From the NCBI GenBank assembly GCA_021769885.1, contig JAETSA010000008.1, positions 1 through 64,000 of the forward strand: DNA of 64,000 bases, in the 5' to 3' direction. The translations under genes were made by a program, and so were the position numbers. Origin of the DNA: Bacillota bacterium (lineage in GTDB: Bacteria > Bacillota > Clostridia > Oscillospirales > Acutalibacteraceae). Positions 60,386-64,000 of this stretch are shown here, piece after piece. Numbering within the stretch: position 1 is the first letter of the stretch; every line of letters begins with the position of its first letter. A model generated the notes under the pieces. The model was not told the DNA's origin, did not search any database, and worked only from the letters and a program-made list of their open reading frames with translations.

Positions 60386-60994
60386 ATGAAAAAATCTTTG
60401 AAAACAGAAATCACAAAAGAAAAGATATTAAAAGCAGCTGTCGAAGAGTTCGGAACGTATGGATATGAAGGCGCAACCGTGAATCAAATCTGCCAAAAGC
60501 ACAACATTTCGAAAGGCTTAGTTTATCATAATTTTGAAAATAAGGATGCACTTTATGTATGCTGTGTGGATAAAGCGGTAACAGAATTTATTTCGTATAT
60601 GCAAAAATATGAATTTGCATCCGACTTCAAATTCTATATGCTGAAAAGATGTGCCTTTTTTGAAATGCATCCCTATTACAGCCGCTTGATTTTCGGCTTC
60701 ATCCTGTGTGAAAACAACGAATTATCCGAAAGGATTCAAGAAATCCAAAACAAATTCGATGCATTTAACAGAAACATTTATATACACGCCTTGAACAGCT
60801 TAACACTCCGCGACGGAATCGCCGAGGAGGATGCTTTGCAATACTACACATTACTGCAGAATATGCTGAACAATTATATGCGAATGGACACCCCATCCGC
60901 AAAAGGATTCGTTCCGATGATGGAGCATCACGAAAAAAGCCTGGAAAGAATCTTGGATTTCATACTTTACGGAATTGCAAAGGAGAACGGCTGA
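60386..60994 (+). CDS. TetR-family regulator
   Basis: A 202-aa repressor with an N-terminal helix-turn-helix (ITKEKILKAAVEEFGTYGYEGATVNQ then ISKGLVYHNFENKDALY) and a helical ligand domain. The ATG at 60386 is chosen over an upstream TTG because GAAAGGTG precedes it. It likely regulates its own operon with the DUF5054 gene and the divergent phosphoesterase/GH36 operon. Confidence 0.93.
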   Translation: MKKSLKTEITKEKILKAAVEEFGTYGYEGATVNQICQKHNISKGLVYHNFENKDALYVCCVDKAVTEFISYMQKYEFASDFKFYMLKRCAFFEMHPYYSRLIFGFILCENNELSERIQEIQNKFDAFNRNIYIHALNSLTLRDGIAEEDALQYYTLLQNMLNNYMRMDTPSAKGFVPMMEHHEKSLERILDFILYGIAKENG

Positions 60995-63030
60995 TGAAAA
61001 AAGTATTTGTTGTATCCAAAACACACTTAGATTTGGGTTTTACGGATTACGCAGAAAATATTCGGCGCAAATATATCGAAGAATTTATTCCGCAGGCGAT
61101 CAGCCTTGCCAATACCGTGAATACAGCGGAACGCAAAAGCTTTATCTGGACCACCGGCTCTTGGATACTCAAGGAAGCACTTGCGTATGCAAACGAAACG
61201 CAAAAAGCCGATTTGCTGAAGGCTTTGCAAAACGGGTATATTGTGCCGCACGCACTGCCCTTTACAACGCATACGGAGCTACTCGACGAGGATACCTTCC
61301 TCTACGGACTTTCCATTGTGGATGCGCTTGATAAAATCCGAGGCAGAAAAACCGTCGCCGCAAAAATGACCGATGTGCCCGGGCACACAAAGGCAATCGT
61401 TCCGTTGCTCGCAAAGCACGGCATTAAACTTTTACATATCGGCGTCAACGGTGCATCTGCCGTACCGGACGTGCCGGAATGCTTTTTGTGGAAACAGGAT
61501 GACTGTGAAGTGGTGGTTGTCTATTCCGGCGATTACGGCGGTGCTTTTCAGTGCGACCTCCTCGAAGAGGTGCTGTATTTTGACCACACCCTCGACAATC
61601 ACGGTGCGCCGTCGCCTGAAAAGGTTTCGGAAAAATTAGAAAAAATCCAAAAGGATTTTCCCGACTACGAGGTAGAAGCATCTTCTCTTGACGATTATGC
61701 AGAAGCCTTGTGGCAGGTCAGAGATAAGCTGCCTGTTGTGGAGGCGGAAATCGGCGACACCTGGATACACGGCAGTGCCTCTGACCCGTATAAATCCGCC
61801 GCCCTGCGTCAGCTGATGCAGTTGAAACGCGAATGGCTTGCCGACGGGACGATGCAAAGAGGCACAAAGGAATATATCGGCTTTACCGACAACCTGCTTT
61901 GCGTTGCCGAGCACACCTGCGGGATGGATACAAAGCCCTATTTTGCGGATTACGAAAACTACTTAAAAGCGGATTTTCCGCGTGCCAGAAAAAAAGATAA
62001 AATCATTGTCAAGCACCCGTTTCGGGATTTCCCCTACAATATCCTCAATATTATAAACAAAATACGGTTTCACAGTTCATACCGTACGATTGAAAAAAGC
62101 TGGCAGGAGCAAAGAGAATACTTGAATCAGGCTGTAAGCTTTTTGGATGACGCGCATAAAATGCAGGCAAAAAAAGCACTGGCTTCTCTCCTGCCCCAAG
62201 AACCTATCGTCTTTGAAAATGCCGAAAAGCTGAACGGCGCCGTAAGTGCGTTCGGCTTCGAGCTTGTGCTCAACGACTTCGGCGGCATCGGCAGTTTTAC
62301 CTATCACGGTCAGGAAATTCTGAAAAACAATTCAAAACCGTTTTTGGAATACCGCGTTTACACAAGCAAGGATTACGATTTTTGGTTTCACAATTACGCA
62401 AGGAATATGAAAGAAAACGCAGTTTGGGCATATCCTGACTTCGGCAGACCGCTTTTAAAATATGCGGACGGGAAATATCCGCAAGGCAGTTTTTATTACA
62501 AACTGACCGATGCCTTTGTGTTAAAAGAGGCCGCTTCCGTAAAAATATTGGCAAATCTCGAATGCGATAAACCGCTTTGCGAGAACGCCGGTGCACCGAG
62601 GACGGTGCAAATTCTTTACACCTTACACAGCGGCGGACTCAAATTTGACGTTTTGTGGTACGGCAAGGATGCCAACCGATTGACAGAAGCCGTTTTTCTG
62701 CATATGTATCCGAATGCCGACGATTTCAGCTTAGTAAAGCTCGGCAGTCGGATTGACTACAAAAATGTCGCTTCCATGGGCGGGAAAAATCTCCACGCAG
62801 TTGAAAAGTGCATTATGAAAAATCACGCGGGCAGTTTTGACTTTGTGAATCATCATTCTCCCCTGATATCCATAGGCAAAGGGAAAATCCTCGAATACGA
62901 CAATAAAATCGAGCCCATAGAAGACGGCATTTCCTATGTCCTTTACGATAATGTATGGGGCACAAATTTCCCGTTATGGTATGCGGATAACGCCCGGTTC
63001 TCGTTTGAAATATTAAAAAACGAAGGGTAA
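60994..63030 (+). CDS. DUF5054 protein related to GH38 alpha-mannosidases
   Basis: A 678-aa cytoplasmic protein. The N-terminal barrel shows KTHLDLGFTDYAENI (His/Asp of the GH38 metal site), KMTDVPGHTKAIVPLLAKHGIKLLHIGVN and EIGDTWIHGSASDPYK. A beta-rich C-terminal half follows. DUF5054 proteins share the GH38 fold but their substrate is not established here. It overlaps the TetR stop by one base. Together with the GH36 enzyme it suggests use of an alpha-linked galactose/mannose-containing glycan. Confidence 0.88.
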   Translation: MKKVFVVSKTHLDLGFTDYAENIRRKYIEEFIPQAISLANTVNTAERKSFIWTTGSWILKEALAYANETQKADLLKALQNGYIVPHALPFTTHTELLDEDTFLYGLSIVDALDKIRGRKTVAAKMTDVPGHTKAIVPLLAKHGIKLLHIGVNGASAVPDVPECFLWKQDDCEVVVVYSGDYGGAFQCDLLEEVLYFDHTLDNHGAPSPEKVSEKLEKIQKDFPDYEVEASSLDDYAEALWQVRDKLPVVEAEIGDTWIHGSASDPYKSAALRQLMQLKREWLADGTMQRGTKEYIGFTDNLLCVAEHTCGMDTKPYFADYENYLKADFPRARKKDKIIVKHPFRDFPYNILNIINKIRFHSSYRTIEKSWQEQREYLNQAVSFLDDAHKMQAKKALASLLPQEPIVFENAEKLNGAVSAFGFELVLNDFGGIGSFTYHGQEILKNNSKPFLEYRVYTSKDYDFWFHNYARNMKENAVWAYPDFGRPLLKYADGKYPQGSFYYKLTDAFVLKEAASVKILANLECDKPLCENAGAPRTVQILYTLHSGGLKFDVLWYGKDANRLTEAVFLHMYPNADDFSLVKLGSRIDYKNVASMGGKNLHAVEKCIMKNHAGSFDFVNHHSPLISIGKGKILEYDNKIEPIEDGISYVLYDNVWGTNFPLWYADNARFSFEILKNEG

Positions 63031-63146
63031 AAGCGAAGGGCTATACCCCCACATCGGCTGAGATTCGTTTCATTGTTGCCTGGAAAGGCGAAACAGATGA
63101 GGAGGAAACGCCTATCCTGCTTTCGGATATATATTTCGCGAAATGA
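63009..63146 (+). pseudogene. C-terminal remnant of a lost gene
   Basis: A 45-codon frame without ATG, overlapping the end of the DUF5054 gene in another frame and reading on to TGA at 63144. Its part GYTPTSAEIRFIVAWKGE, then TDEEETPILLSDIYFAK, has the alternating pattern of closing beta strands in carbohydrate-binding jelly-roll domains. It looks like the tail of a gene whose front was deleted. Confidence 0.4.
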
Positions 63147-63366
63147 TATAAAAAAGTAATAAAAGTGCCAAAAAGAAAATCAGGGGACGGAGTTGTGATT
63201 GATATAACCGCTCCCCATCAATTTAAGTATAGTACAAAGATTTGTTTGAACAATATGAAATTGATTACTGCCGAAAGGTTTTGGGGAAATGATTTAGCAT
63301 AAAGCTTTTCGCTTGAAGTTAGCGATTTAATATTTTTCCGAAGTCCATATTGAGGAGTGTGCGCAG
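63147..63366. other. AT-rich junction before the TOTE gene
   Basis: About 220 bp without a gene and clearly richer in A/T than the rest. It contains a GGGG...CCCC hairpin at about 63183-63218 and, at its left edge, the palindrome ATTTCGCGAAAT (63133-63144). No array hairpin is present. It probably carries the promoter of the next gene, but no consensus pair with normal spacing was found. Confidence 0.5.
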
Positions 63367-64000
63367 ATGAATAAAAAGGCTTTTATTGGTGGTCAAGAAT
63401 ATACAGCTGTGGAAAAGCTTTTCTCATTAGAGAATGGACAGTCGGTTATTATCTGTGCAGATGAACGCGGGGGAAAATATACTTGTTCTGAAGTATTTTG
63501 GCAGAACAGTGCGCCTAAAATAGAGCAAACTGCTCCGATTCATACGCATAGCTCCGCCAAAGAGAAAATCGACTTTTTCCTTTCCGTGTTTAAGGGACGG
63601 CCGGACTTGTATGCCAAGCGCTATTACAGCGAAAAGACAGGAAAAAGCGGATATACGCCTGTGTGTAAAAATGAATGGTCTTACGTTTTGTGTGACAAAA
63701 GAAAATATAAATGTGCGGACTGTCCCAACCGTGAATTCACACCTTTAAGTGCGGAGGCGGTTAAAGCACATTTGATTGGACAGGATGTTTTTTTCCGAGA
63801 TGTCGCGGCGATTTATCCTATGTTAGAGGACAATACAACATATTTGTTGGTTGCGGATTTTGACGAGAAAAATTGGCAGGCGGATGTGTCTGCTTTTTGT
63901 AAATGCTGTAAGGAGTTTGGCATTACTCCCGCAGTAGAGCGCTCGCGTTCGGGCAACGGTGCTCATGTGTGGTTTTTCTTTTCCGATCCCGTTTCGGCAG
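63367..64000 (+). CDS. TOTE-type archaeo-eukaryotic primase domain protein (5' part)
   Basis: The frame runs off the window after 211 codons. AGGAG lies 9 nt before the ATG. After about 65 residues comes KIDFFLSVFKGRPDLYAKRY and SGYTPVCKNEW, then four cysteines (100, 109, 116, 119; CADCPNREFTPLS), VAAIYPML, LLVADFDEKNWQADV with the metal-binding Asp164/Asp166, and ERSRSGNGAHVWFFF with His200. These are the marks of the primase module of TOTE conflict systems, normally followed by a DEAD/DEAH-type helicase and a nuclease in the same protein. Those parts lie outside the window. Base use is more AT-rich than neighbours, which suggests transfer. Confidence 0.88.
   Translation, partial: MNKKAFIGGQEYTAVEKLFSLENGQSVIICADERGGKYTCSEVFWQNSAPKIEQTAPIHTHSSAKEKIDFFLSVFKGRPDLYAKRYYSEKTGKSGYTPVCKNEWSYVLCDKRKYKCADCPNREFTPLSAEAVKAHLIGQDVFFRDVAAIYPMLEDNTTYLLVADFDEKNWQADVSAFCKCCKEFGITPAVERSRSGNGAHVWFFFSDPVSA

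Follow-up and report, generated by a model that had tools for sequence, protein, structure and literature searches.

The window analyzed here, a stretch of 64,000 nucleotides, comprises positions 1–64000 of contig C24 (172,444 bases; contig and window numbering are identical) in a 2.32-Mb assembly of 38 contigs that is 97.6% complete. At its right edge, an ATG-started frame on the forward strand begins at 63367 and remains open to the window end (63367–64000, 211 codons). Because the contig extends beyond the window, the gene can be read whole: the frame continues to a stop codon at 66288 and encodes a protein of 973 amino acids (C24:63367–66288). A likely ribosome-binding site, GAGGAG (63352–63357, + strand), can be read from the sequence 9 nt before the ATG. 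The preliminary description of this DNA had a gene begin at this point, and that gene proves to be real and complete, since to the right of 64000 the frame shows no early stop and runs into a helicase. Upstream, a DUF5054 protein of 678 amino acids is encoded at 60994–63030, and the two genes are separated by an AT-richer junction (63031–63366), as had also been described: GC content falls to 38% in the 500-base bin 63000–63499, a bin that takes in the gene's first 133 bases, versus 45–46% in the bins on either side. The junction contains a 36-codon open stretch (63036–63143), followed by TGA, which matched no Pfam family and may or may not be the gene remnant of the preliminary description, and in a same-genus copy (L094) DNA similarity stops at the stop codon of the upstream DUF5054 gene. 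A paralogue of the DUF5054 gene is present in two separate pieces beyond the window, C24:79361–80080 (− strand) and C11:140981–142018, which cover residues 438–676 and 96–438, respectively; this points to a second copy that has been split or rearranged, or to a break in the assembly.

The N-terminal part of the protein is an archaeo-eukaryotic primase (AEP), or primase-polymerase, domain spanning residues 66–299, of which residues 66–211 fall in the window (63562–64000, + strand). Against the Pfam AEP-TOTE family (PF22548), the whole protein scores 317.3 bits, the curated cut-off being 27, and the 211 codons inside the window alone score 181.7 bits (E = 2.2e-53), so the match is not a chance one. 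The Cys4 region and the ADFD and SGNGAHVWFF motifs attributed earlier to these 211 codons were all found. Counting conservation among those rows of an 82-row alignment that cover each position, and using AEP motif definitions from the accessible part of PMC5862659, C100, C109, C116, and C119 (63664–63723, + strand), a probable zinc site, are each kept in 80 of 80 rows; the metal ligands of motif I, D164 and D166 within A163–D166 (D-F-D at 63856–63864, + strand), in 81 of 81 and 80 of 81, respectively; H200 of the motif II region (S195–F204; 63949–63978, + strand) in 82 of 82; and D238 likewise in all 82. Both the score over the curated cut-off and the retention of the motif I–III residues thus place the domain in the AEP-TOTE family. 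Its closest solved counterparts are CAPP structures. A phmmer search matched the Marinitoga CAPP 7nqf over residues 195–292 (E = 1.4e-8), and a Foldseek search with an AlphaFold model of the whole protein (52-row alignment, mean pLDDT 86.1) matched four CAPP chains with TM scores of 0.77–0.81 (0.81 for 7nqd_B), these scores being normalized by target length and reported without aligned ranges. The CAPP entries matched in all are 7nqd, 7nqe, 7p9j, and 7nqf.

Beyond the window, the same chain continues into an XPB/RadD-like SF2 helicase (C24:64693–65700, + strand) and a C-terminal domain of PLD fold (C24:65884–66240, + strand). The helicase is identified by Pfam, phmmer, and its conserved residues: residues 443–603 match ResIII (67 bits) and DEAD (40 bits), residues 680–778 match Helicase_C at 20.9 bits, below the cut-off of 23.5, XPBII is the best solved relative of residues 444–736, and XPB, UvsW, and RadD entries are among the Foldseek matches of the whole-protein model. 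K471, D572, E573, R774, and R777 are each kept in 82 of 82 rows. For the C-terminal domain, the Pfam match is to PLDc_2 (residues 840–958, 20.5 bits, below the cut-off of 27), and a separate model (pLDDT 86.7) matches the nucleases Zucchini (4ggk), Nuc (1byr), and NucT (6ehi), but also the DNA-binding protein TrmBL2 (5bpd) and FAM83-type entries, which to our knowledge are not nucleases. In place of the H-x-K-x4-D motif of the HKD nucleases, the protein has R917-Q-K919…D924. Of the 77 rows extending into this part, only L038 and L039 have H917 and K919 together, and these two homologues, which retain HQK, fix the register of the lost motif; a looser pattern scan gave three hits, one of which (L025) lies off-site. 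With the pair so rarely kept, the expected nuclease looks inactive here, and its loss, which separates the protein from Nuc, NucT, and Zucchini, brings the domain closer in kind to the non-nuclease members of the fold. D924, W929, and Y930, however, are kept in all 77 rows, and we read the domain as a probable pseudo-nuclease under constraint rather than one in random decay. Six of six plasmid homologues scanned with Pfam have the AEP and helicase domains and no PLD match. Of the domains that the preliminary description expected in the whole protein, then, the AEP-TOTE domain and the helicase are present, but the nuclease is not recognizably active.

That description had also assigned the gene to a TOTE conflict system, with the AEP module as the defining feature of such systems. 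The acronym stands instead for TPR, OB, TBP, and Effector, as given in the accessible part of PMC12458937, which cites Aravind, Iyer et al. 2022. Pfam scans of 19 other nearby proteins (9 and 10 proteins) yielded no TPR match, no fused or adjacent OB-fold or cold-shock protein, and no TBP match, and the effector, understood here as an active nuclease encoded by the AEP gene itself, is represented by a PLD fold that lacks the H-x-K pair. TBP (PF00352) was found in none of 49 genomes, namely this one and 48 with aligned homologues, a search that left out 31 of the 80 genome loci. It was likewise found in none of 33 further genomes: 31 other genomes of the phylum in which AEP-TOTE was matched at E ≤ 0.001, in some of them as short pieces and in one below the cut-off, and two genomes of the same order with a homologue, in one case without the AEP part. 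As a positive control, the same model detects TBP in four archaeal genomes. The TOTE gene set is rejected for this locus on these grounds, no TPR, OB, or TBP among the 19 nearby proteins and TBP in 0 of 82 genomes. What remains of the assignment is a gene with an AEP-TOTE domain that runs into a helicase, and "TOTE" serves here as a domain label that overstates what the gene belongs to. Since nearly all of the 82 genomes have an AEP-TOTE match, the AEP family is frequent where TBP is not found, and by itself the product label gives no grounds for assuming a TOTE system. The point has some reach, as many genes, E. coli homologues in RefSeq among them, bear the name used by Pfam PF22548 and NCBI for this same domain family, "TOTE conflict system archaeo-eukaryotic primase domain-containing protein." A literature search on TOTE or prim-pol defence returned no paper that we recognized as treating the TOTE AEP domain, and the accessible parts of a Tn7-cargo paper and of a BREX paper held no AEP case under primase or TOTE.

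A better fit is offered by the CAPP proteins. As described in the accessible part of PMC8211822, CAPP_A with a helicase is one type of CAPP, the commonest architecture among the non-CRISPR relatives, typically found in mobile elements, is prim-pol plus helicase, and MpCAPP acts as both a DNA-dependent DNA polymerase and a primase, its DxD-to-AxA mutant being inactive. The protein studied here shares with the non-CRISPR "CAPP-Helicase" of that account a CAPP-like AEP domain (7nqf by phmmer, 7nqd_B by Foldseek), a helicase C-terminal to it in one chain (ResIII, DEAD), and a mobile context without cas genes, with no Cas1 match in its genome and with an integrase, a relaxase fragment, and element-end repeats nearby. 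The non-CRISPR CAPP_A-helicase is the closest of the known kinds, and primase and polymerase activity is predicted. Unlike the CAPP-Helicase as portrayed in that part of PMC8211822, the protein and its aligned relatives, which are mostly from Bacillota and Bacteroidota, add a C-terminal PLD-fold domain, nearly always without the H-x-K pair. We regard the identity of the protein itself as close to certain. Z1568, which we take to be an AEP-helicase found in E. coli O157, gives a second point of reference. The Z1568-like family of E. coli has a Prim-Pol clade AEP in common with our protein (PMC5862659, accessible part), and the E. coli plasmid homologue that we scanned ends after the helicase, at 786 amino acids, unlike the 973-residue protein here. 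The Thermus element ICETh2 likewise carries a prim-pol with a helicase neighbor on mobile DNA, according to the accessible parts of PMC7693054 and PMC9751324, but its Ppol and Hel are two separate genes rather than one chain.

On its 3′ side, the gene adjoins an AbiE/MobP3-fragment/Fic/integrase element (C24:66509–73870), outside which it apparently lies and which is not counted in the AEP system. An att-like hairpin repeat 3′ of the AEP gene (C24:66315–66384) shares 84% identity over 70 nt with a second element-end repeat that follows the integrase (C24:73897–73964). The element comprises AbiEi (C24:66509–67126), AbiEii (C24:67113–68024), an HTH_36 gene (C24:69166–69606), a DUF4367 gene (C24:69796–70284), a C-terminal fragment of a MobP3 relaxase (C24:70304–71032), a Fic gene (C24:71118–72164, − strand), and a tyrosine integrase (C24:72647–73870); apart from the relaxase fragment, Pfam scans of the neighbors named no transfer gene. 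The 220-nt gap between the AEP gene and AbiEi holds a hairpin, the element-end repeat, and, just before AbiEi, a perfect sigma-70 consensus, of which only the perfection is notable, since 11 promoter-like sites were found against 9.4 expected in shuffles. Given the gap, the hairpin, the repeat, and this promoter-like site of its own, AbiE is an unlikely operon partner here, and the AEP gene appears to stand alone in its own genome. Further integrase ends lie at C24:69597–69761 and 82090–82475, and an integrase end with its tail also at 73706–73964; these repeated ends and their hairpin or att-like tails, in which the att cores are putative, look like successive side-by-side insertions by one integrase family. 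A 188-nt repeat with a hairpin (86% identity; C24:74435–74622 and 84494–84681) follows two element ends, and copies of it stand directly behind the related elements of L128 and L129, whereas in L127 the copy lies 2.3 kb past the element. Pieces of the element are found at 72–90% DNA identity at these three loci (L127–L129), in the same-genus genomes G009, G010, and G011.

Homologues of the AEP-helicase are spread patchily, in line with the earlier view of the gene as acquired DNA: none of 24 same-genus genomes has a full-length homologue, one (G004) giving a short helicase-only match. Of 299 genomes sampled from the phylum, 31, this one included, have an AEP-TOTE match over the family cut-off. 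The E. coli plasmid homologue is covered to at least 80% in 681 of 5426 complete E. coli genomes, with a TOTE-type product name on most of the 25 rows listed among those matches; the one chromosomal copy opened bears the name of a TOTE-domain protein and is preceded by a YagK/YfjJ-domain gene and followed by IS66 genes. A scan of viral contigs gave one relative, and phage records matched the helicase part alone, none of them reaching 80% query coverage. The nearest homologue among 40 related genomes (69% identity; L134:8128–9780, − strand, on G037:C28) comes from the same order. An in-frame loss has removed its AEP part, leaving a protein of 551 amino acids whose start runs directly into the helicase and which keeps the PLD part; the gene lies ∼20 nt behind an SLFN_AlbA_2/HATPase gene. 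The primase may thus be dispensable in some copies, or this copy may be dead.

Collectively, the comparisons and structural models make it somewhat probable that the gene encodes a mobile-DNA-borne, single-protein primase-polymerase/helicase of the non-CRISPR CAPP_A-helicase kind that serves mobile-DNA processing, such as priming and restart; for the more specific use, the finishing or restarting of synthesis on moved or damaged DNA, we put the chances at about even. In such a scheme, a nick, a fork, or a recombination intermediate would be the site where the SF2 motor tracks on duplex DNA or opens it; on the single strand thus exposed, DNA would be primed or extended by the AEP domain. The pseudo-PLD domain would hold DNA or dimerize the enzyme instead of cutting. 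The most likely use would be to complete or restart DNA synthesis during integration, transposition, conjugation, or fork collapse, and the beneficiary would be the mobile element. The near invariance of the AEP and helicase catalytic residues in the 82 aligned proteins favors this reading, as do the genome's lack of Cas1 and TBP matches and the fact that the nearest characterized domain, that of MpCAPP, primes and extends DNA (PMC8211822, accessible part).

The plasmid homologues point the same way. At E ≤ 1e-40, 102 plasmid records match (44 conjugative, 22 mobilizable, and 36 nonmobilizable), and recombination or transposition genes adjoin the AEP-helicase gene in 10 of the 18 neighborhoods opened, which were hand-picked from two ranked listings and are not a random sample. 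In six (L136, L137, L145, L147, L150, and L151), the neighbors are three tyrosine recombinases in a row, with a DUF736 gene in between in L137 and L150; three have TniB/TniQ genes beside the AEP-helicase gene (L141 and L148 on the same strand, L144 on the opposite one), and one (L153) has a recombinase together with a DUF4158 gene. The other eight lack such a set: L154 has a single tyrosine recombinase nearby, toxin–antitoxin genes adjoin in two (HigB-type in L139, AbiEii in L143), a HipA piece lies two genes away in L152, and the remainder are L138, with a Gp2-type gene, L140, L142, and L149. On the Sphingobium plasmid pTB1 (L141:811–8403), a weak rve/Mu-transposase gene, its matches lying below cut-offs, is followed by TniB, TniQ, and the AEP-helicase gene with 4-nt overlaps each, a four-gene run arranged as if it were one transposition operon. 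Against a role in mobile-DNA processing stand the choice of the 18 plasmids by hand, the eight without a recombination set, and the restriction of all six recombinase trios to Alphaproteobacteria, as well as the AEP-less copy at L134, which keeps the helicase and PLD parts. Moreover, the relaxase near the gene is a fragment with no other transfer gene named around it, and in Thermus the ICETh2 prim-pol with its helicase neighbor is dispensable for element replication (PMC7693054, accessible part). Finally, homologues also lie tightly by toxin–antitoxin and ATPase genes, which fits a conflict role at least equally well.

This last point underlies the live rival, defence in a broad sense, in which the helicase-primase would sense or convert intermediates of invading DNA, acting with or guarded by a toxin-like neighbor; we consider it possible, though distinctly less likely than mobile-DNA processing. 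In 82 loci (this one, 80 genome loci, and one viral), the recurrent close neighbors are SLFN_AlbA_2/RecG-like genes (17), AAA_14/DUF4143 genes (11 and 6, in two clusters), a small HTH gene (8), an ATPase_2/DUF234-like gene (8), and AbiE in a few more, the genes having come from a mechanical ORF picker and the cluster identities from Pfam scans of a few representatives. Partner genes lie within 250 nt on the same strand in 29 of 55 cases, against 65 of 935 for all neighbor genes (Fisher P = 3e-22, ignoring kinship); by type, this holds for 12 of 19 AAA_14, 7 of 8 ATPase_2, 7 of 19 AlbA_2, and 3 of 9 AbiE genes. In gut bacteria, many homologues have AAA, Schlafen, or AbiE genes beside them, and on an Arcobacter plasmid, AbiEii ends 6 nt before the AEP-helicase gene. 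The partner types also interleave on a quick tree of 80 rows with long branches (AbiE, 4 rows and 4 changes; AAA_14, 12 and 8; AlbA_2, 13 and 9; ATPase_2, 7 and 3). The same labels nevertheless cluster on that tree, needing 36 changes in total where shuffling gave 48.3 on average, which means that the loci lack independence and that the Fisher P value overstates the association. The association is, besides, far from universal: 40 of the 82 loci, labeled "other" or "none," have no such partner in reach, and 6, labeled "edge," are cut by contig ends, to which all three labels are partly due. The ten-row clade that holds our protein (L002, L004–L008, L010, L011, L015, and L017) shares no partner, and its sole example is the AbiE pair at the present locus, which sits behind the hairpin, the element-end repeat, and its own promoter-like site. 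Nor is there a recognizable active nuclease in the protein, and the best PADLOC matches are PrimPol models, followed by partial helicase matches such as PbeA. The one defence phenotype found for a mobile prim-pol, that of PMC7693054, was followed by the report of addAB loss of function in every ppol mutant isolated (PMC9751324; both sources in their accessible parts). The earlier characterization of the region as acquired defence DNA is unsupported in its defence part, and homologues are common both on mobile DNA and in bacterial chromosomes. Were the defence reading true, the TOTE label would be right in spirit, even though the TOTE gene set is absent.

The gene could instead encode the replication primase-helicase of the adjoining integrative element, which we think unlikely. 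A one-chain AEP and helicase is typical of mobile-element replicases (PMC5862659, accessible part), and an HTH_36 gene, a relaxase fragment, and an integrase all lie within 8 kb. However, the AEP gene lies outside the repeat pair that bounds the element, and G009, G010, and G011, which hold relatives of the element, have no match to the AEP-helicase protein. The SF2 nature of the motor also speaks against a replicase, but this is not decisive, because the motors listed for AEP replicases in that part of PMC5862659 are RepA-type, DUF927, D5-type SF3, and, remotely, SF2. Less probable again is a decaying passenger without present function: remnants do lie nearby (C24:69597–69761 and 70304–71032) and a same-order genome does carry a copy without the AEP part, but a good ribosome-binding site, 973 intact codons, and the retention of catalytic residues in both enzymes make it very improbable. 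Least probable of all is a CRISPR-associated prim-pol aiding spacer acquisition, to which we give almost no credence: the AEP domain scores 287 bits with the PADLOC CRISPR-associated PrimPol model and matches solved CAPP structures, but the role is rejected for this genome by the absence of a Cas1 match from the 97.6% complete assembly, and in the 23 of 33 searched genomes that have Cas1 it never lies within 49 kb of an AEP/helicase homologue on the same contig, a comparison that short contigs limit.

Returning to mobile-DNA processing, a wider proposal can be made, although only tentatively and with slightly less confidence than we give even to defence: the AEP–SF2 helicase would be a general service enzyme repeatedly recruited by mobile DNA, its close neighbors being exchangeable ATPase or toxin genes and recombination machines as unrelated as tyrosine recombinase trios, Tni-type transposases, and a recombinase/DUF4158 unit, and the pseudo-nuclease of the gut Bacillota and Bacteroidota proteins would act as a clamp on DNA or on a partner. 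The AEP-helicase is a well-conserved gene of a known, widespread kind, in which the points of note are the lost nuclease site and the repeated neighborhood with recombination genes. If that neighbor pattern is real, then a common and apparently little-tested mobile-DNA enzyme could be given a role.
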